Source: Eubacterium sp. AB3007 (GTDB taxonomy: Bacteria > Bacillota > Clostridia > Peptostreptococcales > Anaerovoracaceae). From it: a stretch of DNA of 64,000 nt. The notes under the pieces were generated by a model that ran no database searches, had not been told where the DNA came from, and saw only the letters and a list, made by a program, of their open reading frames with translations. Shown piece by piece: positions 5,383 through 46,732 of this stretch (positions are counted from its first letter, which is position 1; each line of letters starts with the position of its first letter). The position numbers were made by a program, and so were the translations under genes. Location: contig NZ_JIAD01000001.1 in the NCBI RefSeq assembly GCF_000688015.1, positions 1,178,001-1,242,000 on the forward strand, in the 5' to 3' direction.

Positions 5383-5403
5383 AATGATTTCCTCCTCCAC
5401 TAC

Positions 5404-5412
5404 AGTATACCA
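5404..5412 (-). promoter_or_regulatory. Extended -10 promoter of cobB-surE
   Basis: The minus strand reads TGGTATACT, a TG-n-TATACT extended -10 without a good -35 at 17 nt. The implied leader is only about 15 nt. It lies directly beside the palindromic repeat. Confidence 0.45.
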
Positions 5413-5416
5413 CGGA

Positions 5417-5481
5417 GTGTGTCAAAGGGGACGGTTCTTTTTGACACAATGTGTCAAAAAGAACCGTCCCCTTTGACACAC
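5417..5481. repeat. 65-bp near-perfect palindrome, head-to-head double copy of a dispersed repeat
   Basis: The left 31-32 nt (starting GTGTGTCAAAGGGGACGG) are repeated exactly in inverted orientation with a 1-3 nt centre at 5449. Each arm is itself bounded by GTGTCAAA and TTTGACAC. Single copies of the arm occur at 51463-51494, 53230-53260 and 55594-55625. All four places are intergenic. It resembles REP or small MITE-like repeats that are mobilised in trans; no transposase is in the window. Confidence 0.9.
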
Positions 5482-5501
5482 TTCCGAAGCAGTGGTATAT
5501 T
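5473..5501 (+). promoter_or_regulatory. Promoter of azlCD, -35 box supplied by the repeat
   Basis: TTGACA (5473-5478, the outer end of the palindrome), 17 nt, TATATT (5496-5501), also with a TG at the extended -10 position. Confidence 0.6.
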
Positions 5502-5539
5502 GGAATGCGGAGAATTTGAAAAGGACACAATAATTATCG

Positions 5540-6316
5540 ATGGAAACAAACAAAAAAATCTTTTTGCATGGAATGCATGATGGGATCCCCATCGGGATCG
5601 GATACTTCGCTGTCGCCTTTTCTCTGGGTATTACTGCCAGAGACTGTGGCTTCAACGCTTTCCAGGGATTCCTATCCAGTATCACCACCTATGCATCGGC
5701 GGGCCAGTTCATCGGCTACACACTGTATGCGGCCAACGCCACGCTGCTGCAGCTGGCAATCATGACGGTCATCACCAACGCACGCTATCTGCTGATGGGA
5801 TTCGCCCTGAACCAGCGACTACCCCAGGGGACACCGCTATACAAGCGTATGCTTTGTGGAGTGGCCATCACGGATGAGATCTTTGGGATCACCATCGCAC
5901 GCCCGGGGTACGTCAACCCCTTCTATCCACTGGGCGCGCTGGTAACGGCAGCTCCCATGTGGTCCTGTGGCATCGCCCTTGGGATCACCATGGGAAATCT
6001 TCTTCCGCTACGCCTGGTCAGCGCCCTCAGCGTAGCTCTCTTTGGCATGTTCCTGGCGGTAATCATCCCGCCATCCCGCCGCGATAAGATCGTGGGAATC
6101 TTTGTCGCCATCAGTTTTGGCACCAGTTATGCAGCTACCATCCTTCCCTGGATCCGGGATCTGTCTGCGGGAAATCGAACCATCATCCTTACGGTGGCCA
6201 TATCTGCGATTGCCGCGGTTCTCTTCCCGGCGCGGCACGAAGTGGAAGGCGCGGCGGACACAGCGGACACATCCAACACCACCGCCATTACCAGAGAGGA
6301 GGCCTCCCGTGAGTGA
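5540..6316 (+). CDS. azlC: AzlC-type branched-chain amino acid exporter, large subunit
   Basis: 258 residues, about seven hydrophobic segments, starting with GMHDGIPIGIGYFAVAFSLG, a typical AzlC N-terminus. AzlC and the small partner AzlD form an exporter of branched-chain and related amino acids in the inner membrane. The C-terminal 30 residues are polar and probably cytoplasmic. The azlD start overlaps the azlC end by 8 nt, which implies translational coupling. No Lrp/AzlB regulator is next to it; the promoter appears to use the end of the palindromic repeat. Confidence 0.9.
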   Translation: METNKKIFLHGMHDGIPIGIGYFAVAFSLGITARDCGFNAFQGFLSSITTYASAGQFIGYTLYAANATLLQLAIMTVITNARYLLMGFALNQRLPQGTPLYKRMLCGVAITDEIFGITIARPGYVNPFYPLGALVTAAPMWSCGIALGITMGNLLPLRLVSALSVALFGMFLAVIIPPSRRDKIVGIFVAISFGTSYAATILPWIRDLSAGNRTIILTVAISAIAAVLFPARHEVEGAADTADTSNTTAITREEASRE

Positions 6317-31443: not shown

Positions 31444-31959
31444 TCAGTCCAGTGTCAGGGATGGTGCCGAGTAGGTTCTTCCGGCCAGTTCCTGATCCAG
31501 CATGTACAGGCCCTTTCCATCGGTGCCGAACAGTTCCATCTTCTTGATAAGAGTGCTGGCGTTGTCCTCTTCCTCTACCTGCTCCTTGACGAACCAGTCC
31601 AGGAACTGCATGGTCTTGAAATCCTTCACATCATAAGCTGCCGCATAGATGTTGTTGATCAGACCGGTAACATACTGTTCGTGCTCATAGGCCTTCTGCA
31701 GGGGATCCATCAGGGTCTTCAGCTCTGCCTCCGGCTTGTCGATGGCCAGAAGCTCGATGCTCTCTCCGCACATCTGCAGAAACTTCAGCATCAGCATGGC
31801 GTGATCTCTCTCCTCCTGCGCCTGGATCGTGTACCAGTTGTTGAACCCGCTGAGTCCCTCATCCTCGTAGAAGTTTGCAAACTCCAGATACAGGTACGCA
31901 GAATAGAGTTCCTTGTTGATCTGGGTGTTCAGTAAATCCTTCACGTTCTTATCGAGCAT
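31444..31959 (-). CDS. ftnA: Non-haem ferritin
   Basis: 171 residues. The four-helix bundle is clear, with ferroxidase ligands in NKELYSAYLYLEFANFYEDE (Glu17-type), QAQEERDHAMLML (Glu and His) and KEQVEEEDNASTL (Glu). It forms a 24-mer that oxidises and stores iron. AGGAGGAAAAG precedes ATG. It follows the polysaccharide deacetylase by 18 nt, so both share a transcript. The iron link fits the nearby metal or corrinoid uptake genes only loosely. Confidence 0.95.
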   Translation of the reverse strand: MLDKNVKDLLNTQINKELYSAYLYLEFANFYEDEGLSGFNNWYTIQAQEERDHAMLMLKFLQMCGESIELLAIDKPEAELKTLMDPLQKAYEHEQYVTGLINNIYAAAYDVKDFKTMQFLDWFVKEQVEEEDNASTLIKKMELFGTDGKGLYMLDQELAGRTYSAPSLTLD

Positions 31960-33164: not shown

Positions 33165-34319
33165 TTAAATCTTTTCCAGTTTACCCAGGCTTTGTGCAAG
33201 CTGCAGTAGTTCCTCCACGCGCCGATTGGCGGTGCCGCGGGGAAACTCGGCGTAGATCACCCGGCCACAAAGCCGGATCAGCTCCTTCGCCCGCTCCAGG
33301 GCAGCGTCACTGATCTCTTCGAAGGGTCTCTCCGTGATCACTTCGCGCGCCAGCAGTCTGGCCAACCGGAAATCCACGTCGTTTTCGTACAGGATGCCCG
33401 TCGCAAAGGACCTGTTCTCCTTCTGCAGTTTCCTGTAGACAGGGATCCCCGTACCGCAGGAACTGATGACGAACACGTCCGGTGCGTCCTGCACTGCCGA
33501 TCCCGGTGCCTCTGCCGCGCCATACCCCCAGCCTTTGCCGTTAGGGGCGGGGAGTTCGATGCTGCCGAACAGCGGATCGAAGAACCCGTTGTCGATCTCG
33601 TAAAGATCCCTGATCATGTTTTCTTCAAATATCTCTTCCGGTGAACCGTACCGGTAGATGTGGTCGCCTTTCACACAGATGACCTTGTCTGCGATCTTCT
33701 CCGCCAGGTCAATCTCATGAAGGGACATGATCACGGTGATGCCTTTCTCCTTCGCCATGTTTCGCAGGATGGAGAGGAGTTCCAGCTTGTAGCGGACATC
33801 CAGGAAGGAAGTGGGCTCGTCCAGGATGATGAGTTCCGGATCCTGGCAGATGGCCCTGGCCAGCAAGATGCGCTGACGCTGGCCATCACTGATGGCATTG
33901 AAGTCCCTGGGCCCCAGCTCGGTGGCGTTGACGGCGGCGATGGCCGTATCTACCATGGCTTCATCCTCTGGGCGCAGCACACCCAGACGACCGGTGTAGG
34001 GATAGCGGCCGCTTGCGACGATATCATAGCAGGTCAGAAGTTCCGTTTTCAGGCGCTCTGTGAGCACCACTGCCATCTTCCGGGATAGCTCCGCATACGG
34101 GATACGGTGGATGTCCCGACCTTCCAGACTCACACCGCCGCGGATCTTGGCCAGCTGCCGGGTAATGGTCTTCAGAATGGTAGACTTGCCGGCACCGTTA
34201 GGACCGATCATGGCCACGATCTCGCCCTTTCTGATATCCAAGCAGATATCTCGAATCAGCGCCTGCCCACTGTAACCCACAGACAGGTTATCCAAGGAGA
34301 TATAACTGTTCCTATCCAT
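33165..34319 (-). CDS. ABC transporter ATPase (FecE/BtuD type) with extra C-terminal domain
   Basis: 384 residues, about 120 more than usual. Walker A GPNGAGKST (39-47), signature SDGQRQR (144-150, with Asp in place of the second Gly of LSGGQ), Walker B LIILDEPTS (163-171), and H-loop LHEIDL. Residues about 275-384 form an added alpha/beta domain: VFVISSCGTGIPVYRKLQ, FATGILYENDVDFRLAR and CGRVIYAEFPRGTANRR. Such extensions occur on some clostridial FecE-like ATPases; the function is not known to me, and a substrate-sensing role is a guess. The start overlaps the permease stop (TAATG). Confidence 0.93.
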   Translation of the reverse strand: MDRNSYISLDNLSVGYSGQALIRDICLDIRKGEIVAMIGPNGAGKSTILKTITRQLAKIRGGVSLEGRDIHRIPYAELSRKMAVVLTERLKTELLTCYDIVASGRYPYTGRLGVLRPEDEAMVDTAIAAVNATELGPRDFNAISDGQRQRILLARAICQDPELIILDEPTSFLDVRYKLELLSILRNMAKEKGITVIMSLHEIDLAEKIADKVICVKGDHIYRYGSPEEIFEENMIRDLYEIDNGFFDPLFGSIELPAPNGKGWGYGAAEAPGSAVQDAPDVFVISSCGTGIPVYRKLQKENRSFATGILYENDVDFRLARLLAREVITERPFEEISDAALERAKELIRLCGRVIYAEFPRGTANRRVEELLQLAQSLGKLEKI

Positions 34320-35356
34320 TAGCCGAGCCTCCTTTTGCTGATCATCATGTAGATCACCACGGGGGCACCGAAGATAGCGGTCACCGTGCTGATATTCAGT
34401 TCCTGAGGTGCGAAAGCCAATCTGGCGATCAGGTCACAGATCATGCAGAACACCGCTCCGCCCATCATACAGCCCGGGATCACCACCAGCGGTTTGGAGG
34501 TGCCCATGGCGCCCTTCACCAGGAATGGCGCCGCAATGCCCACGAAGGAGATGGGACCCGCGAAAGCTGTGACACAGCCGGAGAACAGGCTGGACAGCAC
34601 GATCAGGAGCACACGGAACAGGCGGATGTTCACCCCGATGCTCTGGGCATAGGACTCGCCCATCTGGAACGCGCTGATGGGCTTTGACAGGAGCATGGTG
34701 ACCACAAAGCACACACCCACCACGCCCAGGCAGATAAACACATTGCTCCAGGTCATGCCTGAGAACGTTCCCTGATTCCAGTTGTGCAGGTTGGCGATGT
34801 CCGAATCCTCCGCAAAGGTGATCACGAACTCCGTCACGCCGGTACAGATGTAGCCCACCATGATGCCTGCCACCAGAAGTGCTGACATATTGTGGATCCT
34901 ACGGGAGACCGCCAGAATGAACATGGTGGCGATCAGGGATCCAACAAAGGCTGCCACGATCAACGTATAGGAGGAAACATGTTCCATGTTCCGAAGGAAC
35001 ACGATCAAGGTGATGGCAACCACCATCTTGGCACCCGAAGAGATTCCCAGCACAAAAGGCCCCGCAATGGGATTGCGGAAGAAGGTCTGCAGAAGGAACC
35101 CGGACAGTGCCAGCGCCCCTCCCAGGATCCCCGCCGTGATGATCCGTGGCAGGCGAATGGTCCACACGATGTCCATCGTCTTCTCCGATCCGTCACGAAG
35201 GAAGATAGCGCGGGCGATTTCGCCCACGCTAATATGTACGTTTCCAGAATTGATGTTCACCACGGTGATCACCAGAAAGGCCACTGCCATCAGCACGAAC
35301 ACGATGGCGCACCGCAGACGGCGCCGCGCATTCTCCCCATGAAAGCCCTGTTCCAT
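34319..35356 (-). CDS. FecCD/BtuC-type ABC transporter permease
   Basis: 345 residues with nine to ten membrane segments. The family blocks RLPRIITAGILGGALALSG, FRNPIAGPFVLGISSGA and GPISFVGIAAPFLVKGAMG are present, the last containing the ATPase-coupling loop. The family moves ferric siderophores, haem or cobalamin. It starts 3 nt after the lipoprotein gene stop and ends overlapping the ATPase start, so the three are one operon. Cobalamin is favoured as substrate because of the upstream riboswitch and not from this sequence itself. Confidence 0.95.
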   Translation of the reverse strand: MEQGFHGENARRRLRCAIVFVLMAVAFLVITVVNINSGNVHISVGEIARAIFLRDGSEKTMDIVWTIRLPRIITAGILGGALALSGFLLQTFFRNPIAGPFVLGISSGAKMVVAITLIVFLRNMEHVSSYTLIVAAFVGSLIATMFILAVSRRIHNMSALLVAGIMVGYICTGVTEFVITFAEDSDIANLHNWNQGTFSGMTWSNVFICLGVVGVCFVVTMLLSKPISAFQMGESYAQSIGVNIRLFRVLLIVLSSLFSGCVTAFAGPISFVGIAAPFLVKGAMGTSKPLVVIPGCMMGGAVFCMICDLIARLAFAPQELNISTVTAIFGAPVVIYMMISKRRLG

Positions 35357-35359
35357 ACT

Positions 35360-36523
35360 TTACTCCAATCTTGTGATATACTTCAGATCCTTTGGATCGT
35401 CTTCAGCAAACAGCTTGTGGAAATCCATAATCATATCCGCTACCAGGTCCGTCCGTTGGTACATCGCACTCTCAGTGACCCAGCAGTTGTTGTTTTTCAC
35501 GGCCTTCATCTGTTTCATGATGGGATCCTTGCCCAGCAGCGCCTTCATGGATTTCACGCTGCCATCGATGCTCCCGTTGTATACGATGTAGTCCGCGTCC
35601 TTGGCAGTGTCATAGAACTGTTCCATGGACATGTCGATGGAGATTCGACCGTCCTCGTCATCCAGATCCTTGAACACGTACCGCGCTCCCGCGATATCGA
35701 TCATCTTGGGGATGTAGTCTGTGCTCCGTCGGACGACGACTTTGTTATCGGTAGAGATATAGAAGAACGCCACGGTCTTCTCTGTGTTCTTGAAGTCATC
35801 CAGCGCCTTCAGTTCCTCCATCTGGCGGTCAAAGAACGCGTTCGCTTCCTTCTCGTGATCGGTGAGCACGCCGTAGAGCTTGATCCACTCTGCCCGGCCC
35901 ATGGGGTCCGACTCGTAGCTGGCCCGGTCGATCATCACCGGAACGCCCAGGTCCTCGATCATCTCCTGTACTTCTGGGGTATGTTCGATCATGGTGGACT
36001 CCAGCGCCAGATCGCATCCTTCATCCAGAATGGTCTCGTAATCCGGCTGGCTGTACTTGCCTGCGTAGAGGATCTTTCCCTCCTCCATGGCCTTCTTCGG
36101 CTCGTCAAAGGTCCATGCCTCTTTCTTGATGGAGCTCATGCGCACGTGATCCATCGCGTCCATGGAGGCGAACATAGCCATGGACGCTGTAGCCGCCAGG
36201 TAGATTCTGTCGATGGGTTTCTGGAGGACCTTGATATCTTCGTCCAGACCCTCAGGAGCCTCCTTCCCCTCCGGCACCAGCAGGAATCGCTGGTGATCGT
36301 GGATGTCGATCAGATCATACCCGTCCTGATAGCGGTAAACGCTGAACTCCTTCGCCCGTTCCAAGGGCAGTTCTGACTCATAGGTCAGGCCCTCGATCTG
36401 GGGGGCTTTGTTGTCAGAGTCGGCTTTGTTCCCGCCGCCACCGCAGCCCGTGCACAAAGCCATCATCACCATGACCGCAGCCACCACCAGGGCCAGTACC
36501 CGTCCTTTCTTACTTCTCATCAT
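35360..36523 (-). CDS. Substrate-binding lipoprotein of the FecB/BtuF-like class
   Basis: 387 residues. The N-terminal 27 residues form a lipoprotein signal (MALCTGC, lipid on Cys27, with Cys at -3 rather than the usual Leu). The two-lobe Peripla_BP_2 fold is indicated by DLALESTMIEHTPEVQEMIEDLGVPVMI in the first lobe and the linker-following helix AEWIKLYGVLTDHEKEANAFF. It would bind the ligand outside the membrane and pass it to the permease. The start overlaps the 1042-residue surface protein gene by 14 nt. Its N-terminal part is similar to the C-terminal 300 residues of that surface protein. Confidence 0.9.
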   Translation of the reverse strand: MMRSKKGRVLALVVAAVMVMMALCTGCGGGGNKADSDNKAPQIEGLTYESELPLERAKEFSVYRYQDGYDLIDIHDHQRFLLVPEGKEAPEGLDEDIKVLQKPIDRIYLAATASMAMFASMDAMDHVRMSSIKKEAWTFDEPKKAMEEGKILYAGKYSQPDYETILDEGCDLALESTMIEHTPEVQEMIEDLGVPVMIDRASYESDPMGRAEWIKLYGVLTDHEKEANAFFDRQMEELKALDDFKNTEKTVAFFYISTDNKVVVRRSTDYIPKMIDIAGARYVFKDLDDEDGRISIDMSMEQFYDTAKDADYIVYNGSIDGSVKSMKALLGKDPIMKQMKAVKNNNCWVTESAMYQRTDLVADMIMDFHKLFAEDDPKDLKYITRLE

Positions 36524-39500
36524 TGCTCTTACCCTTCAGTTTCTTTTCTTTGTGATCTTTCATGTACTTCTGGAAAACTTTCTTGGCCAGGTCTTCCTCG
36601 CCATAGATGGCGCCATAGACCTTGATCCACTCTGCCTTGGCATAGTTGGACTTCTCCGCATCGGCGCGGTCCACCAGCATGGGGATCGACAGGGCTGCAA
36701 AACGCTTCTGGAGGACAGCCAGATTCTTCGTCTTCTGCTCGGACTCTTTCTTTGCCTCTTCGTTATCGCTGCCGCCCAACAGGCCTTTCTCCTCTGCCTT
36801 GACCTTCTCTGGAAGCACGCTGCCCGGGAGCACGGCCAGCTTGACCTTTTCCTTCACTACTTGGGCATAATCAGGCTTCTGTACATCGCCGGTGACCTTC
36901 ACTTTGCCCTCGTCCAGGGCCTTTCTGGCAGCGTCTTGCAGATCCGCCTCATCCATTCCCAGGAGAGAAACATCGTCCATGTGCTTCAACTGTTCCAACT
37001 CGCTGGCCACCGTGTTGTCGAACACATAGGTGCTCTTCACTGGCTGCTGGATGATGATGCAGTCCTTGTCCAGGCCCGCAGGGATCTCCACGCCCTTTGG
37101 TACCACCAGATAGTTTACCACGTTGTTCTGGTAGAGGTCCGCCGTGATCTCGTTCTGGGATCTGGCGATGGGTTTGCCCTCTTCATCATACTCTATCTTT
37201 TCGCCATTGTCTTGCTCTTTTTTCTGTGCATCGGCTTTCTTTTCTGCCGCTTCCTTCTTTTCTTCCTTATACAGAGCCGTGTCCTTGGCCTGATCCAAAG
37301 AGATCAAGGTGATGCCCTTCTCGTAGCGGAAGATCTTGAAGTATTCCGCCTTCTCCACCACCTTGCCCTTCTTCACCTTCAGCCCTAGCAGGTCCGGAGC
37401 TTTGTCGGAGAGTTTCTTGGTGCTGGTCAAATGACCGTCATCGCCCTTGGCCGCATCGGCGCTGGCACCCGTCGCCCCCTTCTTGTACACAAAGATATTG
37501 TACTTGATCCAATGGGGCTGGGACATGGCAGTGGTCCTGCCGATGATGGTGTTGTTGGCGTTCAGCTTGATCGGAATCGTGAAGGTGGAGTTGCCACCCC
37601 CGCTCTTGGAGAACACCCGGCCGCTGGCCTTCAGAGAGTCGTACTTGCTGCTGCCAAACACGATGGTGGCATAGGCCTTGCCGCCGGTGACGGTGATCTT
37701 GGTGCACTTGATGTACGCCAGGCGGCCTGAGCCACCGCTCCAACTGAAGCGGTCCGGTGCGTAGACACCGTCCTTCAGGCTGGTCTTGTTGTTCACCGCT
37801 GAGGTGCTCTTGCCTCTGTCATCCTTCCACTTGGAGACCTTGTCCTTCTTCTTGTCGGTCAGTTTGATCTTCCCCTGCTTGCCGGAGGTAGCGTATTTCT
37901 CCTCCTTGGCCTTGGGCTTGGTGGGCGCCACCGTGGTGCCGTCCTTCACCTTCACTGCCCCGGCGCTGTAGAAGATGATCCACTTGCCCGCCCGCCAGGG
38001 GTCGGTTCCCGGGTTACCATCCGTCTCATACTTCTTGGAATGAGGCGTAATTGCCAGTTTCTTATCCAATGCAGACACCGGAACCGTAAAGGTATAGTAC
38101 CCATTGACGATCTTCGCCTTGCTCCAGTTCTTGATCCCTGCCTTTTTGGCCTGAGCCGGGGTACCCATATATACATAGTCATATCCGTCACCATTCAGCG
38201 TGATGGTGGCTGTCATCTTGTTGCCCTTCTTGACCAGGATCACCTGCACTGGATCCTTCTCCTTTGGATACAGGTTGAACATGACCCGGTCTGTAGTCGC
38301 CTTCACCTTCCAGGTACCGTCAGAGAGCTTGGAGGTGGTAGTTGGTGTCGGGTCCGTTGGCTTTGTGGGAGTCGTCTGCCCGCCCGGCTCACCGGAGTTT
38401 CCGCCCGGCTCACCGGAATCACCGCTCAAAACATCCACCGCATAGCCTTCCGGCACGGTAGTCTCGTCACTGATCTTCTCCGGATTATCGGACAAAGCAA
38501 TGTGATACGTATACTGCACCCAGTGGGGCACAGTCATAGCAGTGGTGCGGCAGGCAGCCGGCATATCTTTGTTCAGAGTCACCGGCACATAGGCGTTCTG
38601 GCCGATAAACCGGTACACACCTGCCTTCCCCTGATCCTTCGAAGGATCGTAGAGGGTCTTGTCTTCTTCGTTGGTGCCTGCTGTCCCCATGTAAATGTGG
38701 CTCATCTTGTTGCTGGAAGCCTTGAACAAGGCCGTTACCTTGCCATTCTCGATGATGACCCGGTCACAGTTGACGGTGGCCTTTCCGGTCCCACCTTTGA
38801 AAGTAAAACTGTCCACCTTGTAGGTGCCCTTCAGTTCTGTGGACACCTGTGTTTCCTCTGAGTAATCCGTGGGGATCGTGGTGTCATCGCTGAGCTTCTG
38901 CGCGTCCTCTGCCAGAGTAATCTTGTACTTGTAATTTATCCAGTGGGGCTCGCTCATGGCGGTGGTACGCGCAGCGATATCCCCCTCCTCCTCCAGGACC
39001 ACCGGTACGTAAGTAACCTGATCGATGATCCGGTAGACATCTTTCCCCATCTTGCCGCTGGCAGGATCGAAGAGAGAAGTGTCCTCGTTCCCTTCGGGTA
39101 CTGTTCCCAAATAGGCGTGGGTCATCTTCTCACTGCTGGCCCGGAAAATGGCGGTGGCCTTGCCATCCTTCAGGATGACCTGGTCACAGGTCAGTTTCGC
39201 CTTGCCGGTGCCGCCGGAAAAGCTGAAGGTGGACGGTTTGTAGGTGCCGTCTGTAAGGGCCTTTGGACTCTTCTTTAATTTCTTTATAGAAGACTTCTCC
39301 TTGGCAGTCTTCTGCTCAGCAACCTGCTCCTGTTCAGCAGAGGACTCCTTCTTACTTGCCTTCTTCTCCGCAACCTTTTCGGATTCCGGCGCCGGAGCTT
39401 CCTGAGGTTCTTCCTGGGGCGGTTCGGGAGTGACCACCGGCTCCTCTGCCGGAGCCTCCTCCTGGACCTTCTCCTCTTCGGCTTCTGGTTTCTCCTTCTC

Positions 39501-39638
39501 GACCTGAGTTTCTGTCTGGGCCTTCTTCTGGACCGGCTCCTCCGTCCCATCCTCCGCAAAGCCCATGGCAGCAGTGGACATCACCATCATCAGGATCAGT
39601 CCTATGGAAATCAGTTTTTTGATCGTTTTCTCCTTCAA
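36510..39638 (-). CDS. Large secreted surface protein: repeated ligand-binding-like domains plus partial substrate-binding-protein module
   Basis: 1042 residues, TTG start at 39638 with AAGGAGAA 6 nt upstream. Signal peptide 1-28, then a Glu/Lys/Pro-rich spacer to 128. Domain A copies at about 129-241, 269-382 and 620-720 share GGTGKA, a following Cys, a KMxH-x-Y-x-GT segment (first two copies) and RTTAMxxPHWxxY. Residues 438-566 are a divergent domain with YDYVYMGTPAQA. Residues about 743-1042 resemble the first part of the adjacent lipoprotein (FKIFRYEKGITLISL, PMLVDRADAEKS, AEWIKVYGAIYGEEDLA) but end right after the linker helix, so the second lobe is missing; an acidic/Lys-rich insertion lies near 788-820. 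There is no LPXTG or membrane anchor. I do not recognise the repeats as NEAT domains. Likely role: capture of cobalamin or related corrinoid at the wall, by inference. Confidence 0.85.
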   Translation of the reverse strand: MKEKTIKKLISIGLILMMVMSTAAMGFAEDGTEEPVQKKAQTETQVEKEKPEAEEEKVQEEAPAEEPVVTPEPPQEEPQEAPAPESEKVAEKKASKKESSAEQEQVAEQKTAKEKSSIKKLKKSPKALTDGTYKPSTFSFSGGTGKAKLTCDQVILKDGKATAIFRASSEKMTHAYLGTVPEGNEDTSLFDPASGKMGKDVYRIIDQVTYVPVVLEEEGDIAARTTAMSEPHWINYKYKITLAEDAQKLSDDTTIPTDYSEETQVSTELKGTYKVDSFTFKGGTGKATVNCDRVIIENGKVTALFKASSNKMSHIYMGTAGTNEEDKTLYDPSKDQGKAGVYRFIGQNAYVPVTLNKDMPAACRTTAMTVPHWVQYTYHIALSDNPEKISDETTVPEGYAVDVLSGDSGEPGGNSGEPGGQTTPTKPTDPTPTTTSKLSDGTWKVKATTDRVMFNLYPKEKDPVQVILVKKGNKMTATITLNGDGYDYVYMGTPAQAKKAGIKNWSKAKIVNGYYTFTVPVSALDKKLAITPHSKKYETDGNPGTDPWRAGKWIIFYSAGAVKVKDGTTVAPTKPKAKEEKYATSGKQGKIKLTDKKKDKVSKWKDDRGKSTSAVNNKTSLKDGVYAPDRFSWSGGSGRLAYIKCTKITVTGGKAYATIVFGSSKYDSLKASGRVFSKSGGGNSTFTIPIKLNANNTIIGRTTAMSQPHWIKYNIFVYKKGATGASADAAKGDDGHLTSTKKLSDKAPDLLGLKVKKGKVVEKAEYFKIFRYEKGITLISLDQAKDTALYKEEKKEAAEKKADAQKKEQDNGEKIEYDEEGKPIARSQNEITADLYQNNVVNYLVVPKGVEIPAGLDKDCIIIQQPVKSTYVFDNTVASELEQLKHMDDVSLLGMDEADLQDAARKALDEGKVKVTGDVQKPDYAQVVKEKVKLAVLPGSVLPEKVKAEEKGLLGGSDNEEAKKESEQKTKNLAVLQKRFAALSIPMLVDRADAEKSNYAKAEWIKVYGAIYGEEDLAKKVFQKYMKDHKEKKLKGKSNDEK

Positions 39639-39663
39639 TTTATTTCTCCTTAAAACTTATGAA

Positions 39664-39692
39664 GGGAAAACCCGCTCTGTGGCGGGTTTCCC
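39664..39692 (-). terminator. Hairpin between the 681- and 1042-residue protein genes, partial terminator
   Basis: The stem GGGAAA(A)CCCGC/GCGGGTTTCCC has a 6-nt loop; TTTT lies within the outer arm on the minus strand. It is 25 nt downstream of one stop and 26 nt upstream of the next start, so it probably lowers rather than abolishes read-through. Confidence 0.55.
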
Positions 39693-39717
39693 ATATAAAA
39701 GATTGTCTGGAGCAATC

Positions 39718-41763
39718 TTATTTCACCTTGACGGTCTTGGTCGTGGCCTTCCCGAAGATATCGGTCTTCTCGACGGTCTTGTAGCCGCGGATGGTCACGA
39801 TATACTTTGTCTTCTTCTTGAGCCCCTTGATGACCTTCTTCTTGGCTTTGACACTAACCTTCAGAGTCTTGACAGGCTTCTTGGTCTTCTGCTCAACGAC
39901 CATGATCTGGTAGCCGGCGAACTTGGTGTTCTTCTTCCATTTAACAGTTATTTTCTTCTTTCCCTTCTTGACCTTTACCTTGGCCAGAGCGATGTTCTTG
40001 ATCTTGTTCTGCTCGGTTTTGATCCTATCGGTTTTGATCCTATTGGCCTTGGCGGTAGCAGCCTGCTTCCCAGTGTTGGAAGTAGTCGAAGGCTTAGTTG
40101 TCTTTTTGACCAGCCCTTTCACTGCGTCATCAATAGCTTTCGCCATCAAATCAACCTCATCCTGCTGTGTCGCGAACTTATCCTTCTTACCTACGGCCTC
40201 TTTCGCCTTTGTTACTGCTGCTACTGTTTCGTCAGTATAAATACTCAGATCTCCAGGAATCTTTGCGATAGCGGCATCCACTGCCGTGTAATCGGCAATA
40301 CTTGGATCGATCACTAATGTACCATTCCCTTCGTCCAATGTTGCGATCCGTTCATACCATGTACCGTTCTTCTTCGATTTCAGAGACAGATAAAACGGCT
40401 CTCCATTCGCCAGCGTCTTCAGAGTTTCAGGCTGCCCAAAGGTCTCCACCCATTTGACGGGGATCGTAAACACATTTCCATCCGCAAGCGCAATCGTCTT
40501 CTCAGCCGCATTTGCCTCTGCAAACGTTCCGACAAACGCCTCGCTGTAAGACTCACTTCCCATCTCGAGAACAAGATCAGCCTTGTAGTTATTAGAATTT
40601 GGCCCCCCAACTGTATCCAACTTTGCGGAGTTCACCTTCAGCATCTTGACATTGTTTGTCACTGTGATATCTCTACTGAACTCATAGTCACCTGTAACCA
40701 ATGTACCTGCCGCACGATCAAGCTCCATCTGTCTGGGATAAAACGCTCTTGCCAGAGAGTTCTGCCCCTGCAGATACTTCTGATAGTAGGAATCAGACAC
40801 CGCCACCAGCGGCATATAAGACTCCCCATCTTCCACCGGAATTCTGAATTCCCACTTACCGGCTGCATTCAAATAGCCGTGGATCCACGAGTCATTCCCA
40901 TTATCTTTGCTGCCATCTCCATTGGCTACAGCCTGCTCATAGGTTCCCTTGTACAGTTCATGATAGCCTTTACCGCTAAGAGACATGACCAGGTAAGTCT
41001 TCCCCTCTGTGGTTTCCAGCGATGCTGTCTCGGCTTTGAACATGCCAGTGTTATTAGTGATGGCCAGATTAACAGGTTCTTCGATAGTAGTACTCAACGA
41101 ATACATGATCGGTCTTGGCATACTCGAGGAGACTCCGCCGAAGTAGGTCACACCGTTCAGGTCCACCGGAATCGGGTAGTTATTATTCGAATCGCGCTCG
41201 ATTGACTTACCACCGACCCACACACTTGGGTATGAAGTCAGTTTGGCTTTCGTTGCCGCACCACTCGTCACATAGATGTTGGCTGTCGCCTGACCGTTCT
41301 CCACGGTGACGCTCTCAACCCACCAGTTTCTTGTGCGGCTCGAATCACTCTTACCCTTGTCGGACTGGGAACTGACGGCCGGCTCAGATGTTGTCGTGTA
41401 GGTACCATCTGTCAATACGGTGTTCGTATCGATCTCATATGAGCGCACTGCCCACAAAGCGGCCTCCAGAACGCGGCCGTAGGACTGACCGTCTCCGGAT
41501 GGATGGTTGAATGTTTTGTCGATCGTCGCCTGATCCTCTGCTGAAAGAGCCTCATAGTCGGTCTGAATAGCTTCGACCTTTTCGCGATCCTCAGCTTTGA
41601 AATCACGCGGATCGTTGGACAATTCCCCAATCGCTGCTGTAACGCTTTCCAGAGTCGGGCTACTCGTCCCTTCCCCATCCGCAAACGCAGCCACGCTGCT
41701 GAATGCAAACACCACACACACTGACAGCAACAGCGTCAGTATCTGTTTCAACTTACTATTCAT
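39718..41763 (-). CDS. Secreted surface protein under cobalamin riboswitch control
   Basis: 681 residues. Signal peptide 1-29. Residues about 33-110 form a FIVAR-like helical region. Three beta domains follow, each opening with a DGTY- or TGDYEF-like strand; the first (about 118-235) ends in SSSMPRPIMYSLSTTI, aligned with the RTTAM-PHW-Y motif of the other surface proteins but without the His. The second and third have HELYKGTYEQAVANGDG and SEAFVGTFAEANAAE. A second helical region (about 510-575) and a very Lys-rich fibronectin III-like end (GYQIMVVEQKTKKP, ATTKTVKVK) complete it. There is no sortase signal. AGGAGGAAG precedes ATG. It is first after the minus-strand riboswitch. Confidence 0.85.
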   Translation of the reverse strand: MNSKLKQILTLLLSVCVVFAFSSVAAFADGEGTSSPTLESVTAAIGELSNDPRDFKAEDREKVEAIQTDYEALSAEDQATIDKTFNHPSGDGQSYGRVLEAALWAVRSYEIDTNTVLTDGTYTTTSEPAVSSQSDKGKSDSSRTRNWWVESVTVENGQATANIYVTSGAATKAKLTSYPSVWVGGKSIERDSNNNYPIPVDLNGVTYFGGVSSSMPRPIMYSLSTTIEEPVNLAITNNTGMFKAETASLETTEGKTYLVMSLSGKGYHELYKGTYEQAVANGDGSKDNGNDSWIHGYLNAAGKWEFRIPVEDGESYMPLVAVSDSYYQKYLQGQNSLARAFYPRQMELDRAAGTLVTGDYEFSRDITVTNNVKMLKVNSAKLDTVGGPNSNNYKADLVLEMGSESYSEAFVGTFAEANAAEKTIALADGNVFTIPVKWVETFGQPETLKTLANGEPFYLSLKSKKNGTWYERIATLDEGNGTLVIDPSIADYTAVDAAIAKIPGDLSIYTDETVAAVTKAKEAVGKKDKFATQQDEVDLMAKAIDDAVKGLVKKTTKPSTTSNTGKQAATAKANRIKTDRIKTEQNKIKNIALAKVKVKKGKKKITVKWKKNTKFAGYQIMVVEQKTKKPVKTLKVSVKAKKKVIKGLKKKTKYIVTIRGYKTVEKTDIFGKATTKTVKVK

Positions 41764-41857
41764 ACTTCCTCCTTCTCATGACACAATGTTTTGTGAAATA
41801 ACCACGCGCATCGCTGACCGCCCGCATCTTCGGTACGCAGGGCCCAAAAACCAGCAC

Positions 41858-41886
41858 GACCTCCTCCACAAACCATGGAGAAGGTC
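41858..41886 (-). terminator. Expression-platform hairpin of the minus-strand cobalamin riboswitch
   Basis: On the minus strand an 11-bp stem (GACCTTCTCCA/TGGAGGAGGTC, one G-U pair) has a 7-nt loop; a five-T run follows 7 nt later. It lies about 95 nt before the ATG, fitting transcription control. A nearby hairpin at 41912-41930 (GAACTTCC region) could take part in the alternative fold. Confidence 0.6.
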
Positions 41887-41939
41887 TACACATAACAAAA
41901 GAAATATTGACGAACCTTCTTCGGAAGTTCATGGCATCA

Positions 41940-42140
41940 ATCTCAGATTCGGCAGGTTTCCTGACTCTGGTTCCTCGCAACAGTACGTCTTCTCAGGACT
42001 TGCGCCGTTGCAGGCTGTTTCCCAATGACATCGTGTACCGAAACTCCCCATTACAGTGACCGGATCGTCCAGGACTTGCACCTGATTCCCTATTATCCCA
42101 CGGCCGCGCAGGCCGGGGCACCGAACTGGCTTCGTATTCA
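41940..42140 (-). ncRNA. Cobalamin riboswitch upstream of the 681-residue surface protein
   Basis: The minus strand carries the conserved cobalamin aptamer elements in order: GGTGCC (near 42118-42123), GGGATAATAGGGAATC with AGGTGCAAGTCCTG (around 42070-42100), CCGGTCACTGTAATGGGGAG (around 42042-42062), and the B12 box AGTCAGGAAACCTGCC (41951-41966). Bound adenosylcobalamin or a related cobamide normally turns such genes off. Confidence 0.95.
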
Positions 42141-42156
42141 GTTTTACGCTTCTAAT

Positions 42157-42184
42157 ATTCTACCATAAATCTGCCGCCTGTCAA
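42157..42184 (-). promoter_or_regulatory. Promoter of the minus-strand cobalamin-controlled transcript
   Basis: On the minus strand TTGACA, 16 nt, TAGAAT. The predicted start near 42150 is just upstream of the aptamer. Confidence 0.75.
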
Positions 42185-42204
42185 TGAGGAATCTACCGCG
42201 GGAT

Positions 42205-42300
42205 GCGGGCCTGAGGAGAAAGGACCCGAATAGCGACAGGAATGTCGCGTGGGGAAACTCTCAGGTGAACAGAGTATTGATTTCGATACTACCCGCACCC
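42205..42300 (+). other. Structured element between the two divergent promoters, weakly glycine-riboswitch-like
   Basis: The plus strand reads CCTGAGGAGAAAGG, then a small hairpin GCGAC/GTCGC, then AAACTCTCAGGTGAACAGAG, close to the conserved 3' part of glycine aptamers. CCTGAG pairs with CTCAGG, and TGCGGG with CCCGCA outside. The usual first stem partner of CAGAG is missing, and no glycine gene follows. It lies outside both predicted transcripts. Confidence 0.3.
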
Positions 42301-42338
42301 CTTCCCTGTGCAGTCATCTTCCAAAGACAGGTTCTGTG

Positions 42339-42368
42339 TTGACAGTTACCCCATTACCGCAGTATAAT
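42339..42368 (+). promoter_or_regulatory. Promoter of the plus-strand cobalamin-controlled transcript
   Basis: TTGACA, 18 nt, TATAAT, both consensus hexamers. The predicted start is near 42375. Confidence 0.85.
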
Positions 42369-42379
42369 TACGGGTGGAA

Positions 42380-42582
42380 TAGTACGCTTTGCAGTGCCCT
42401 GCGGTAATAGCGGGGATAATAGGGAATCGGGTGGAAATCCCGAGCGATCCGGTCACTGTGAGGGGAGATGCGTACAGCGATCGCCATTGGACGGCTACGT
42501 CAGGTGAATCAGTCGATTCGCCCGCCTCCGCCCGAGAAGGAGCTGTACACGATGGATCCCTGAGCCAGGAAACCTGCTGCAT
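42380..42582 (+). ncRNA. Cobalamin riboswitch upstream of the 1316-residue surface protein
   Basis: Conserved elements in order: GCAGTGCC (42391-42398), GGGATAATAGGGAATCGG with GTGGAAATCCCGAGC, CCGGTCACTGTGAGGGGAG (about 42449-42467), and the B12 box GAGCCAGGAAACCTGC (42562-42577). The closing stem can pair GCAG near 42391 with CTGC at 42577-42580. Confidence 0.95.
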
Positions 42583-42627
42583 TGTAAGTTGGAGAAACGC
42601 TTCCGGAGAAAGCTGTCCAATCACACC

Positions 42628-42692
42628 ATGCAGTGGGGTCTGCATTTTTGATGTGTTTATGAACTGTCTTCTCGCAGGAGGAGGCAGTTTTT
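42628..42692 (+). terminator. Two tandem intrinsic terminators in the riboswitch expression platform
   Basis: First: ATGCAG (42628-42633), loop, CTGCAT (42640-42645), then TTTTT. Second: AACTGTCTTCT (42662-42672), 6-nt loop, AGGAGGCAGTT (42679-42689), then TTTTT overlap to 42692. The first left arm can instead pair with CTGCAT at 42577-42582, which is part of the aptamer closing stem, a classic anti-terminator exchange. Confidence 0.75.
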
Positions 42693-42781
42693 CTTGTTGT
42701 GGAGAAGGCAATGCCGGCAGAGTTCCCCAGAAGCGTACAAGTCATTTCATCATAAGGATTACAATGAAAGGAAAAGAATCT

Positions 42782-45700
42782 ATGAAAACACACTTGAAAA
42801 AGGTGATGGCGCTTCTGCTATCTGCAGCGGTGGCTTTGTCCATGATGAGCGTTCCTGCATTTGCGGACGAAAACCCCACGGGCACAGGCAGCGCGACTCT
42901 GGCAGACGGAACCTATACCATCGACGCGGATCATTATGCGTTCGATGGCGGCACCGGCAAGGCCAGGCTGACCTGCACCAGCGTCACCATCAAGGACGGG
43001 CAGGCTACAGGTGAGTTCACAGCCAGCAGCGCAAACATGTCACACGTTCATATCGGAACCGTTTCCGCAGAGAGCGAGGAGCTCTCCATATATGATCCGG
43101 ATACGGACCAGATGGGCGCAGACACTTTTAAGATTGAGAACAAGAAGGTCACCCTGCCTGTAAAACTGAACGAGAAAACAGCGATCAGCGCCAGAACAAC
43201 GGCGATGTCTCAACCGCACTGGATCAATTACACCTACATGATCACCATCGATCCTTCCCAGAAACCGGATGAACCTGGCCAGGGTGGTTCCGACCAGCCA
43301 GCAGACCCCACAGATCCCACCGGCCCCACAGATCCGACAAACCCCACGGATCCTTCCCAGCCAGAAGAGATCACTGACGGGACCTACACCGCAACCGGAT
43401 TCAAGACAGATGTGACGACCGATGCCAGCGGCATGATCGTGGTATCGAAGGCTACTGTTGTCATCAAGGATGGAAAGGCCACCGCCATCGTCACCATGAA
43501 GGGAACCGGCGCCGATCGCTTCTATGTTTCCGACACCGCCACCAAGGACACCATCATCGCTGAGGCCGTGGAAGAAGAAAAGAAAGAAGTCGGCGGCAAG
43601 GAAAGCAATCTGTTGGGTGGGCTGATTCTGCCGGAGAGCAACGCTTACACCTTCTGGCCCGTGCCCATCACTCTGGGAGAGCCGAAGGTTTACGCTGCCC
43701 GTTCCGCCAGCCACTTTGCCAAGCAGGACAAGACCCCGGACAAGTATTACTACGTCCACGACTTCCAGATCGACAAGGAAAACCTGAAGCGCGTCAGCGA
43801 CAGCACAGAGATCATGACACCGCAGCAGGATGCTCAGCGCTACATGGACCAGTACTTCTCTAACGGGACCATCAGCAGCGACCATGCGGATGCCATCAAG
43901 GGCAAGGGAACCAATGTCACAGTGCCTTACTATGATACTACCGGGACCGAGATAAAAAGTTTTATCTTCAAGCGTAGTAACAAGTTCCGGGCGGGCTGGT
44001 TCATCGACAGCAGCATCCTGAAGACGACTTATTTCTCCAGCACCAACCTGAAGAAGATCCGTTATCCGGAAGGCAAAAACGGCACGGTCACCTTCAGCCC
44101 GAAAGCAGCCTACAGAGATAGCGGCATGGACTTCACGGCCACGCTAAAACTCTACCCCGCCGACACTGGCTACGATCAGTACGATGGAAACGGTGTGTAC
44201 TATGACAAGGAGCCTCTGGCGGAGCGCACCTTCCACATCACCGTCCAGGACAAGCCCGTCATCGACTTTGATGTGACGGTGGATGTAACCGACATGAAGA
44301 CCAAAGAGGCGATCGATGGCGCCACCATCAAGGTGGTGGACGAGGCAGACAATACCGAGATCACCCCGAATGCCGATGGTACCTTCAAACTCAATTCCCT
44401 GAAGAAATATACTATCTCCGTCTCCAAGGAAGGCTTTGTGGCACAGGGAGGCGCCGCCGAGGCGACAAAGACCGGCTACTCACCGGCCAAAGAGGAGCAC
44501 GTGGTGCTCTCTCTCCTCAAGGAAGCAGACAGCATGCACACTGTGAAGTTCCACGTGAAGGATCAGCTGGGCGAGGATGTACCCGAGCCTGTGATCACTG
44601 TCACCAGAAGCGGAGAGACCGTGGCACCAGAAGCAGACGGAAGCTACCGCCTGTACGATGGGATCCAGTACAACTGCGCCGTGTCCAAGGACGGTTACCA
44701 GGAGAGCCAATACAACTATCTCAAGCCCACCGAGGATGTTGTTCAGGAGATCACCATCAAGAAGTATCTGGATAGTCACACCATCACGCTCAAGGTATAC
44801 GATGAGGACACCTCTGAGGAACTGAAAGATGTGGTCAGATCCATCACCGTAGAGGACAAGGAGATCCCGGCAAATGAAGACGGGTCCTTCACTGTCCCTG
44901 GCGGCAAACAGCTCCACTGCCTGCTGACGATGGAGGGATATCAGTCCAAAGAAGTCTATCTGACGCCCAACGATTTCGAGCCCACTGTGGACTATACCTT
45001 CTCTCTGAAGATCAACTTCCGCAACCAGTTGAAGAAGGAAATCGAGAAGGCGAAGGCCCAGCTGGCGGATATCACCGAGGGCGATGCGCCGCTGGAGTAT
45101 CCCTCCGGCACAAAGTCTGCCTTCCAGGAGGCCATTGCCGCAGCAGAAACCGCACTGAACAAGGAAGAGGGTACCGAGGACTCTTTCCAGGAGGCGCTGT
45201 CTGTACTGAAGAAGGCAGAGACCAAAGCTGCAAACGCCCAGCTGCCGGACGAAGCTGACGTACTCGTGCAGGTGAATCAGACTGCCGGTGAGCCGGGACA
45301 GCTCATGGAACTTCATGTCAAGGGCGACACTGCCAAGTCTCACAAGTATGCCAAACCAAGTTCTCACAAGAAGATGGTCACCATCCTGGATGTATTGGTG
45401 GCCGTCCACGAAGAGATGTATGGAGAAAACTTTGACAAGAAGCCGCTGGATTACCTGGAGCAGTATGACTTTGGCATGTACGTGGTCACCAGGATCTTCG
45501 GCAAAGACACCAACCAGACCTCCTACCGACTGAACAACAGTTACGTTGACCACATGGGCTACCAGAAGACGGACGTCCACAGCGGTGACCTGGTCACTAT
45601 CAAGATCGACAAGAGCTACAGCGATCAATATCTGTATTTCGATAAAATCAGGGAGGAAGCACCTGCCGAAAGCCACGATGTCGTACTTCACACCGGCGAT

Positions 45701-46732
45701 CCCAAACAGCCGGCACAGGCCACCGGATTCCAGGTAACACTGGCAAACGAGAATGGCCATGAGGTCAGCGCTGTCTCCGATGAGAATGGCGTACTGCACT
45801 TCACTTTCCCGGAAGACGGCACCTATACGGTCAAGTCTGTCAGCAAGGAAGACCTGAAGGATCCGATCACCGTACCTTTCCTACAGGTGAAGGCTATCTT
45901 CCAGCAGCTGGCCGCTGCCAAAGAAAAGGCGCAGCAGGAGGCCGCGGATCTGGTCGATCTTTCGGACTACCGACAGGCTCAGCAGCAGAGGATCTGCGAC
46001 CTGCAGAAGCAGGCCCGGGAGGCCATCCAGAATGCCACCAGCCTGGAAGCCATCGACAAGGCCATGGACGAACTGCACACAAGCGTAGCCGAGCAGAAGA
46101 CGGATCGTCAGCTTCTGACTGAGGAACTAGCTGCCGCTGAGAAGGCCCTGCAGGAAGCACTGAACAAGAACAAGGACGCCGCTTCTCAGTTGGCCGACAG
46201 GGAAGCTGCACTGAATTCGCTGCGCAGCGATCTGAAATACGCAGCCCTCTCCAAACTGAAAGCCAAGGCGTTCAACGGAAAGACACAGGTGCAGAAGCTT
46301 GTCATCACCATGAACGGCAAGAGACTCACGGCCGGAAAGGACTATGCGATCGCCTATGCATCCAACAAGAACATCGGCACCGCAACCGTGATCATCACCG
46401 GCAAGGGTAGCTACCGAGGCACACTGCGCGCCAACTTTGCCATCAATCCTGCAGCCTGCAAGATCACCAAGGCAAAGGCACGCAAAAAGACCATCAAACT
46501 CAAGTGGAAGAAGCCAAAATCAAAGTTGACCGGCTACCAGATCATGTACACCAAGAGCGGCAACTTCAAGGATGCGAAGACACTGACAGTGAAATCTGCC
46601 AAAAAGAAGTCCGCCAAACTCAAGAAGCTGACTCGCAAGAAAACATATCGAATCAAGATGAGAGCTTACACGGTCGTCAACGGGAAGACTTACTACTCCA
46701 AGTGGTCGAAGAAAACCGTGAAAACCAAATAA
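42782..46732 (+). CDS. Very large secreted multidomain protein under cobalamin riboswitch control, with DUF4430-like domain
   Basis: 1316 residues from ATG 42782 (AAAGGAAAAG upstream, after the riboswitch; the frame is open through the leader but starts there cannot be right). Signal peptide 1-28. Residues about 40-157 are a copy of the shared repeat domain with Cys65, NMSH (85-88) and RTTAMSQPHWINY (139-150). A Pro/Asp/Thr linker follows; about 197-340 is a variant domain with a His at the end. About 495-745 hold three PEGA/carboxypeptidase-regulatory-like repeats. About 745-820 is FIVAR-like. About 825-957 resembles DUF4430, the transcobalamin C-terminal-like domain (YRLNNSYVDHMGYQ, HSGDLVTIKI). 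A helical stretch (1037-1155), an Ig-like domain and a Lys-rich fibronectin III-like end follow. There is no LPXTG. Probable corrinoid-binding surface protein. Confidence 0.88.
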   Translation: MKTHLKKVMALLLSAAVALSMMSVPAFADENPTGTGSATLADGTYTIDADHYAFDGGTGKARLTCTSVTIKDGQATGEFTASSANMSHVHIGTVSAESEELSIYDPDTDQMGADTFKIENKKVTLPVKLNEKTAISARTTAMSQPHWINYTYMITIDPSQKPDEPGQGGSDQPADPTDPTGPTDPTNPTDPSQPEEITDGTYTATGFKTDVTTDASGMIVVSKATVVIKDGKATAIVTMKGTGADRFYVSDTATKDTIIAEAVEEEKKEVGGKESNLLGGLILPESNAYTFWPVPITLGEPKVYAARSASHFAKQDKTPDKYYYVHDFQIDKENLKRVSDSTEIMTPQQDAQRYMDQYFSNGTISSDHADAIKGKGTNVTVPYYDTTGTEIKSFIFKRSNKFRAGWFIDSSILKTTYFSSTNLKKIRYPEGKNGTVTFSPKAAYRDSGMDFTATLKLYPADTGYDQYDGNGVYYDKEPLAERTFHITVQDKPVIDFDVTVDVTDMKTKEAIDGATIKVVDEADNTEITPNADGTFKLNSLKKYTISVSKEGFVAQGGAAEATKTGYSPAKEEHVVLSLLKEADSMHTVKFHVKDQLGEDVPEPVITVTRSGETVAPEADGSYRLYDGIQYNCAVSKDGYQESQYNYLKPTEDVVQEITIKKYLDSHTITLKVYDEDTSEELKDVVRSITVEDKEIPANEDGSFTVPGGKQLHCLLTMEGYQSKEVYLTPNDFEPTVDYTFSLKINFRNQLKKEIEKAKAQLADITEGDAPLEYPSGTKSAFQEAIAAAETALNKEEGTEDSFQEALSVLKKAETKAANAQLPDEADVLVQVNQTAGEPGQLMELHVKGDTAKSHKYAKPSSHKKMVTILDVLVAVHEEMYGENFDKKPLDYLEQYDFGMYVVTRIFGKDTNQTSYRLNNSYVDHMGYQKTDVHSGDLVTIKIDKSYSDQYLYFDKIREEAPAESHDVVLHTGDPKQPAQATGFQVTLANENGHEVSAVSDENGVLHFTFPEDGTYTVKSVSKEDLKDPITVPFLQVKAIFQQLAAAKEKAQQEAADLVDLSDYRQAQQQRICDLQKQAREAIQNATSLEAIDKAMDELHTSVAEQKTDRQLLTEELAAAEKALQEALNKNKDAASQLADREAALNSLRSDLKYAALSKLKAKAFNGKTQVQKLVITMNGKRLTAGKDYAIAYASNKNIGTATVIITGKGSYRGTLRANFAINPAACKITKAKARKKTIKLKWKKPKSKLTGYQIMYTKSGNFKDAKTLTVKSAKKKSAKLKKLTRKKTYRIKMRAYTVVNGKTYYSKWSKKTVKTK

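Follow-up and report, generated by a model that had tools for sequence, protein, structure and literature searches.

The Isd system is described as a haem relay of Gram-positive bacteria made of NEAT proteins, IsdE and a FecCD-type permease, and FetB of Porphyromonas gingivalis as a surface porphyrin chelatase (PMC13402209). BtuS and HmuS are CobN-like proteins of Bacteroides, with BtuS predicted to lie outside the cytoplasm and tied to tetrapyrrole use (PMC6460266; PMC12583661). We analysed a locus of the gut bacterium Eubacterium sp. AB3007 in which three secreted proteins with NEAT-like repeats, P0001, P0002 and P0003, are encoded next to a FecCD-type ATP-binding cassette (ABC) importer, behind two cobalamin riboswitches. 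It occupies positions 33165-46732 of a 64,000-nt stretch of contig NZ_JIAD01000001.1 (the window), to which the coordinates below refer; compared loci and genomes are numbered L### and G###, G000 being the strain's own genome. The locus probably encodes a B12-responsive Gram-positive surface relay of NEAT-type domains dedicated to the cobalamin pathway. We propose a surface relay for a cobalt tetrapyrrole because of the homology to Isd, the kinship of one domain to a domain of animal B12 carriers, the control by riboswitches and the genomic links with CbiK and CbiD. In the open-licence PMC literature, we found no paper linking NEAT domains with cobalamin riboswitches, nor one linking a NEAT domain, cobalt and a chelatase.

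Organization of the locus

The earlier note on this DNA, made from its letters alone, had described two divergent transcripts, each led by a cobalamin riboswitch, three large secreted proteins of 1316, 681 and 1042 residues, and a minus-strand run reaching a binding lipoprotein, a FecCD/BtuC-type permease and an ATPase. This layout was recovered throughout. Both riboswitches are full-length matches to the Rfam model RF00174, directly upstream of the genes and over its gathering score of 31.5. The three large frames are as described, with signal peptide-like N-termini (read by eye, without a predictor), and reading frames and Pfam matches agree for the importer. P0001 is a single large plus-strand gene, divergent from the minus-strand run P0003, P0002, solute-binding protein (SBP) lipoprotein, FecCD permease and ATPase. 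The main features are as follows.

41934-42140, minus strand: cobalamin riboswitch ahead of P0003-P0002-SBP-FecCD-ATPase (RF00174, 96.3 bits, E 9.4e-23)
42375-42595, plus strand: cobalamin riboswitch ahead of P0001 (RF00174, 92.7 bits, E 9.8e-22)
42782-46732, plus strand: P0001, secreted, 1316 residues, with two NEAT-like domains and carboxypeptidase-regulatory-like, transcobalamin-beta-like and fn3 domains
42848-43270, plus strand: NEAT-like domain 1 of P0001 (118.5 bits, family profile)
43322-43798, plus strand: NEAT-like domain 2 of P0001, divergent (53.3 bits, family profile)
45239-45736, plus strand: transcobalamin-beta-like (DUF4430-like) domain of P0001 (fold search)
39718-41763, minus strand: P0003, secreted, 681 residues, with three NEAT-like domains, all divergent, and a C-terminus resembling fn3
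41062-41454, minus strand: NEAT-like domain 1 of P0003 (49.2 bits)
40753-41082, minus strand: NEAT-like domain 2 of P0003 (66.2 bits)
40312-40749, minus strand: NEAT-like domain 3 of P0003 (45.5 bits)
36510-39638, minus strand: P0002, secreted, 1042 residues, TTG start, with four NEAT-like domains and a C-terminal SBP half
38892-39332, minus strand: NEAT-like domain 1 of P0002 (113.2 bits; modelled piece 38889-39281, AlphaFold2 (AF2) predicted local distance difference test score 93.2, NEAT fold)
38472-38900, minus strand: NEAT-like domain 2 of P0002 (105.9 bits)
37944-38381, minus strand: NEAT-like domain 3 of P0002, divergent (93.9 bits)
37461-37838, minus strand: NEAT-like domain 4 of P0002, TTAMSQPHWIKY (123.8 bits to the family profile)
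36513-37406, minus strand: SBP-like tail of P0002, N-lobe half only (SBP profile positions ~32-247 of 392)
35360-36523, minus strand: SBP lipoprotein, 387 residues, weakly IsdE-like (Pfam Peripla_BP_2, 116 bits)
34319-35356, minus strand: FecCD/BtuC-type permease, 345 residues (Pfam FecCD, 255 bits)
33165-34319, minus strand: ABC ATPase of a FecCD-type importer, 384 residues (Pfam ABC_tran, 101.5 bits)

The three secreted proteins together harbour nine NEAT-like copies. Other domains of P0001 above the Pfam cut-offs are fn3 and the carboxypeptidase-regulatory-like domain; the fn3 match of P0003 falls narrowly below its cut-off, and P0002 matches no Pfam family at E<=1. The tail of P0002 aligns with the adjoining SBP (BLASTP E 2e-19, 27% identity across 192 aligned columns). 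We rejected the reading of this tail as a decayed duplicate of the SBP gene on two grounds, the 27% identity and the presence of an SBP-half tail in P0002-type proteins of relatives too. A NEAT-SBP fusion is also found at L084:11617-13332.

The SBP carries a lipobox (read by eye) and is weakly akin to IsdE-type and other iron-complex binding proteins. Its solved relatives include Lmo2184 (1.3e-7) and IsdE (0.0028), and the IsdE model matches all 12 of its aligned homologues (best 1e-9), the window SBP itself scoring 16.2 of the 298.65 bits needed. No BtuF match was found in NCBIfam for this protein or its 12 aligned relatives. The best NCBIfam matches of the permease and the ATPase are BtuC (208 bits, below the cut-off of 334) and 'corrinoid ABC transporter ATPase' (201.8 bits, below the cut-off of 537). 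Thus, none of the three proteins reaches the equivalog level of BtuF, BtuC or BtuD, but their function may still be similar.

The DUF4430-like piece of P0001 has the transcobalamin beta-domain fold, an identification that rests on the fold search, which was decisive where a sequence search of the PDB gave nothing significant. The piece has no Pfam match, and its best hit among PDB sequences, a quinoprotein oxidase at 0.11, is not significant. An iterative profile connects it to the DUF4430 family, which is matched by 4 of its 14 aligned relatives at E<=1 (best 6.5e-20). DUF4430 or DUF4430-like regions were seen in several other loci. At L073:3269-14715 (own genome, C1:2047268 onwards), a riboswitch is followed by a 1261-residue cadherin-like/PQQ protein and a 449-residue fn3 protein, and farther along come a transglutaminase-core protein and one with DUF4430; this may be another large surface set under B12 control. 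At L074:9185-14345, a riboswitch precedes a 1069-residue protein that combines a single NEAT-like domain with a single DUF4430-like one, and next comes a 531-residue FMN_bind protein. Two riboswitches at L078:4482-11320 stand ahead of secreted proteins of 1528 and 466 residues, each with DUF4430-like regions, and L020:3795-8582 codes for an exported 1595-residue protein that contains fn3 and a DUF4430-like region besides two CbiK domains.

Promoter-like sites stand immediately upstream of both riboswitches, and a terminator-like hairpin follows one of them; all three are consensus matches only.

42157-42184, minus strand: promoter-like site of the minus-strand riboswitch (TTGACA-16-TAGAAT, 11/12, sigma-70-type)
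42339-42368, plus strand: promoter-like site of the plus-strand riboswitch (TTGACA-18-TATAAT, 12/12, sigma-70-type)
42661-42690, plus strand: terminator-like hairpin between the riboswitch and the ATG of P0001 at 42782 (13 pairs, T-rich tail)

The region holds two promoter-like and two terminator-like sites against shuffle averages of 1.2 and 1.4, so that such sites are almost as frequent by chance. Downstream of the ATPase gene lie a polysaccharide-deacetylase-like gene and, at ~1.2 kb, a gene for a ferritin-like protein (31444-31959, minus strand), both named by eye.

The NEAT-like family and cobalamin riboswitches

The repeats belong to the NEAT superfamily. A profile of 94 copies (of 161 non-redundant ones) retrieved NEATs as its seven best PDB matches, with E values from 2.6e-5 for the first to 0.41 for the seventh, and the Pfam NEAT family is matched by 29 of the 94 copies at E<=1 (best 5.9e-7). 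The modelled window copy has no Pfam match and no NEAT of the own genome is above the Pfam cut-off; fold comparison of the AF2 model of P0002 domain 1 nevertheless identified the NEAT immunoglobulin-like fold. NEAT domains are known as haem carriers, with YxxxY as the haem-iron motif of their penultimate strands. String matching in 198 copies found HW[IVLYF]x[YH] in 61, a YxxxY string near the end in 24 and neither in 113, the first count being inflated by a genome scan that selected for TAMxxPHW. In one branch, HWxxY appears to lie about where haem NEATs have YxxxY. A simple contrast between haem NEATs with YxxxY and this family with HWxxY was dropped, as 15 aligned NEAT copies of the same class mostly lack YxxxY at this position as well and only the 61 copies have HWxxY.

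The earlier note had suggested a search for genomes in which the repeat and cobalamin riboswitches co-occur, and the association proved strong. Loci were gathered by the repeat alone, riboswitches being ignored: 29 came from a genome scan and others from relatives, where the repeat was found in 14 of 61 genomes, the own one included. After removal of duplicate genomes, 76 repeat-bearing genes in 36 genomes (the module genomes) remained. A riboswitch over the cut-off lies within 10 kb of 60 of these genes against 3.5 expected, and upstream on the same strand within 10 kb of 53 against 0.9 expected, the expectations being derived from riboswitch number and genome size. The own genome has nine cobalamin riboswitches above the cut-off. 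Module-bearing congeners are Hornefia butyriciproducens and Eubacterium pyruvativorans, and several relatives are metagenome-assembled genomes titled for sheep, goat, roe deer or reindeer. One riboswitch of 30.8 bits just upstream of a NEAT-like gene (G043:C7:25170-25305), below the cut-off of 31.5, was tallied as absent.

As a control, we searched 291 genomes of the class for Pfam NEAT domains; 17 had a match at E<=0.001 and 11 a match above the cut-off. Among 15 stretches of 3-20 kb around NEATs above the cut-off, which cover all 11 genomes and omit one such locus (G079:C6), a single one, L163, has a cobalamin riboswitch. The difference from the repeat genes (Fisher p 1.6e-7) is a guide only, since the units differ and species are not independent. 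L163 comes from another family of the class and codes, after its riboswitch, for a NEAT protein above the Pfam cut-off, an SBP, a FecCD permease, an ATPase and CobN (1037 bits), then for a short protein that matches no Pfam family, a sortase, another NEAT protein, a protein that looks ChlI-like by eye and one of VWA/Mg-chelatase type; CbiJ is found behind another riboswitch. Thus, a second lineage couples NEATs with a cobalamin riboswitch and with an enzyme of cobaltochelatase type, here one from the other class of chelatases. The region L163:2189-18987 holds three cobalamin riboswitches, and both of its NEAT proteins are over the Pfam cut-off.

Exported CbiK, corrin-ring genes and B12 producers

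Gene maps revealed a recurring set of neighbours, namely an exported CbiK, a NEAT-like protein, an SBP, FecCD and ATPase. The importer is followed by CbiD in L036, L038, L044, L045 and L089; in L036 and L038, CbiK is devoid of a signal peptide and placed behind the importer. L093, L102, L115 and L116 combine CbiK, a NEAT-like gene and CbiD with no importer. In 24 loci, a CbiK gene with a long N-terminus lies at most 400 bases ahead of a co-oriented NEAT-like gene; export is not visible in L045 (contig end) and only partly so in L086. Six proteins are NEAT-CbiK fusions (L017, L117, L118, L119, L126, L127), two of them CbiK-NEAT-CbiK. The own genome has such a CbiK/NEAT-like pair 160 kb off, with its own riboswitch (L075:5649-6938 and 5151-5648), the NEAT-like member being a lipoprotein of 165 residues. 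This CbiK scores 237 bits with the Pfam CbiK model; in the test of the exported partner, the NCBIfam CbiK equivalog gave 182 bits, below the cut-off of 400. The CbiK signatures are retained in the long-N-terminus frames, with GHGxx[HA] in 30 of 31 and GDHAxx[DE] in all 31, a set that includes L129 (HemC-like part ahead) and L045 (cut by the contig end).

Links to corrin-ring genes also exist in the own genome, where one repeat protein heads an operon with CbiD, CbiG and a CbiF-like gene (the last by eye; L079) and another lies between a cytosolic CbiK and a CysG-N-type gene (L075). Clusters of this kind, with a cytosolic CbiK and a protein of two NEAT domains and a transmembrane segment (NEATx2-TM), recur in several relatives. 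Alongside lie CbiL and an ABC-2 exporter whose ATPase is DrrA-like, identified as such in L075 and L085 alone.

The module tracks producers of B12, not salvagers. CbiD was found in 35 of the 36 module genomes, whereas only 4 of the 23 relatives that lack the module have it (Fisher p 1e-10, species not being independent). CbiK is likewise present in 35 of 36; G025 has none and G043 only a weak, CbiX-like match. CbiX as a second chelatase was rejected, because the matches to its model are CbiK reading frames, the weak one of G043 included. In a search for CbiK and CbiX, an exported-looking CbiK was the only one found in 11 genomes (G015, G016, G017, G019, G021, G026, G028, G036, G042, G044, G065), with export called by eye from a signal peptide or lipobox and, in six, also by a hydrophobicity scan. 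CbiM-type cobalt/nickel transporters (>180 bits) are encoded in 16 of the 36 module genomes, including 8 of these 11, and this speaks against a motive of cobalt starvation alone; the idea that the module replaces CbiM was therefore dropped.

Some observations stand apart. L036:14203-16545 is a single 780-residue frame of CbiK plus CbiD without signal peptide. An IS30-like transposase (by eye) is found at L075:17471-18760, near the CbiK/haem-precursor cluster. Riboswitches also precede an oligopeptide/nickel-type ABC system with a 502-residue binding protein (L077:13367-15136, by eye) and, by ~0.8 kb, an acetolactate-synthase-like gene (L076:3910-6576, by eye), an odd target if real.

Candidate cargoes and comparison with known systems

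We infer the ligand, the order of hand-off, the direction of transport and switching off by cobalamin as follows. When cobalamin is scarce, both riboswitches would permit production of P0001, P0003, P0002 and the importer. The NEAT-like domains of the three secreted proteins and the transcobalamin-beta-like domain of P0001 would hold a cobalt-bearing tetrapyrrole outside the cell, and P0002 would pass it via its SBP-half tail to the lipoprotein, from which the FecCD permease and the ATPase would pump it inward. The cargo may be a scavenged gut corrinoid or else an early cobalt intermediate produced extracellularly by the exported CbiK found with such domains at another site of this genome and in relatives.

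The riboswitch-led surface capture-and-relay ahead of an ABC importer proposed by the earlier note is well supported, and the likeness to Isd that it saw is stronger than it could know, given the NEAT fold of the repeats and the weak relationship of the lipoprotein to IsdE-type proteins. Beyond its view were the NEAT-like nature of the repeats, the SBP half ending P0002, and the homologues near CbiK and corrin-ring genes. Its corrinoid cargo is plausible: the riboswitches, the transcobalamin-beta-like domain and the corrin-ring tie favour it, whereas the near-universal CbiD of the module genomes and the exported cobaltochelatase partner in relatives may point to a precursor.

Several points weigh against a relay dedicated to cobalamin. 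BtuC/BtuD-type models are only the best of weak matches for the permease and the ATPase, and BtuF is absent from the listed solved relatives of the SBP in the PDB. The NEAT fold and the weakly IsdE-like lipoprotein are kin to components of haem relays. For 16 of the 76 repeat genes no riboswitch lies as near as 10 kb; several of these genes are on contigs in which none was found, some of the contigs ending close by. L029 and L042 have none in the 9-10 kb upstream, even at relaxed thresholds. Four relatives have CbiD but no repeat domain (G037, G048, G052, G062). Finally, a string scan detected no C-terminal LPXTG in P0001, P0002 or P0003; the strings in P0001 and P0002 are internal and of chance type and P0003 has none, so that LPXTG wall anchoring was rejected.

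It is quite possible, if short of probable, that the system serves corrinoid salvage only, finished gut corrinoids being caught and relayed to a BtuCD-type importer, with exported CbiK an unrelated neighbour or a non-catalytic tetrapyrrole binder. The class of the riboswitches, the transcobalamin-beta-like domain and the best, if sub-threshold, matches of the importer would fit. However, the module tracks producers, and G041, which lacks CbiD and has three cobalamin riboswitches over the cut-off (six at E<=0.001), has no repeat domain. Moreover, the exported CbiKs retain their active-site signatures and some are fused to NEAT-like domains. Since the module tracks producers and has, in relatives, an exported cobaltochelatase as partner, a precursor that carries cobalt is a possible cargo in place of the scavenged vitamin. 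We tentatively put forward, as a slightly less likely reading than salvage alone, that a sirohydrochlorin-type precursor is exported, loaded with cobalt by exported CbiK, captured by NEAT-like domains and re-imported for ring completion by CbiL through CbiD. This would account for the 11 genomes with exported CbiK alone, for the recurring order CbiK, NEAT, SBP, FecCD, ATPase and corrin-ring genes, for the riboswitch ahead of CbiK wherever positions were compared, and for the ABC-2 exporter next to CbiL, cytosolic CbiK and the NEATx2-TM protein. We know of no precedent, though, and a cytosolic CbiK also exists in the own genome and at least eight others. In addition, CobN- and CysG-type chelation lay outside the search of the 11 genomes, the ABC-2 exporter is a candidate only, sought in genomes other than these 11, and CbiM-type uptake is common among them. 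If cobalt insertion does occur outside, the ring itself would be a cobalt-scavenging agent and the window locus the return leg.

An Isd-type relay for haem or iron porphyrin, brought under the control of B12 and served by an exported CbiK that would act on haem as the surface chelatase FetB does, seems improbable. The NEAT fold, the weakly IsdE-like SBP and the kinship of CbiK to the solved FetB and Desulfovibrio vulgaris chelatase agree with it; the cobalamin riboswitches and corrin-ring operons do not, nor does the placement suggested for HWxxY in one branch of the copies. The window also has no Fur-box-like site, as judged from one 19-base consensus with at most three mismatches, although the Fur sites of clostridia may look different. 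It is very improbable that the proteins are just large adhesins or matrix proteins placed by coincidence behind riboswitches and beside a transporter: fn3, carboxypeptidase-regulatory and cadherin-like domains do occur in riboswitch-led proteins of the own genome, but the NEAT-like domain is fused to CbiK and to SBP, and lies near CbiD, in several species.

The reading that we favour is a relay in the cobalamin pathway. In these gut anaerobes, one branch of NEAT-like domains is linked with cobalamin riboswitches, with genes for the corrin ring and with a cobaltochelatase that is exported. Bacteroidota capture B12 at their surface; with a corrinoid as cargo, the system would be a Gram-positive counterpart with a transcobalamin-like part. 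With a cobalt precursor, part of B12 synthesis would happen outside the cell. Either way, the system bears on which members of gut communities supply B12 and which take it.

The system of this locus appears, from its sequence, to work like both Isd and BtuFCD. It shares secreted NEAT-fold proteins, an SBP lipoprotein and a FecCD permease with Isd, and the distant locus L163 even has a sortase between its NEAT genes. It differs from Isd by cobalamin riboswitches, where Isd is under iron control, by corrin-ring and cobalt-chelatase partners, by NEATs below the Pfam cut-off in the own genome and by the SBP half fused to a NEAT protein. With BtuFCD it shares riboswitch control and an importer whose best matches, below cut-offs, are BtuC and a corrinoid ATPase; in contrast, its SBP was not BtuF-like in the searches made, and a surface relay stands in front of the importer. 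The Desulfovibrio chelatase is periplasmic. Like it and FetB (PDB 2xvx, 9b86), the exported CbiKs have the CbiK fold outside the cytoplasm, but most of them follow a cobalamin riboswitch, they are joined to NEAT-like domains by fusion or as neighbours, and in some places they lie beside corrin-ring genes. BtuS is similarly a chelatase-like protein with a predicted place outside the cytoplasm, although BtuS/HmuS belong to an unrelated chelatase class with a role in haem iron. Finally, in a comparison confined to the beta-domain, the P0001 domain has its fold in common with bacterial DUF4430 and with the animal B12 carriers transcobalamin, haptocorrin and intrinsic factor; the identity is 11-20%, and the domain sits beside NEAT-like domains, in a bacterium.

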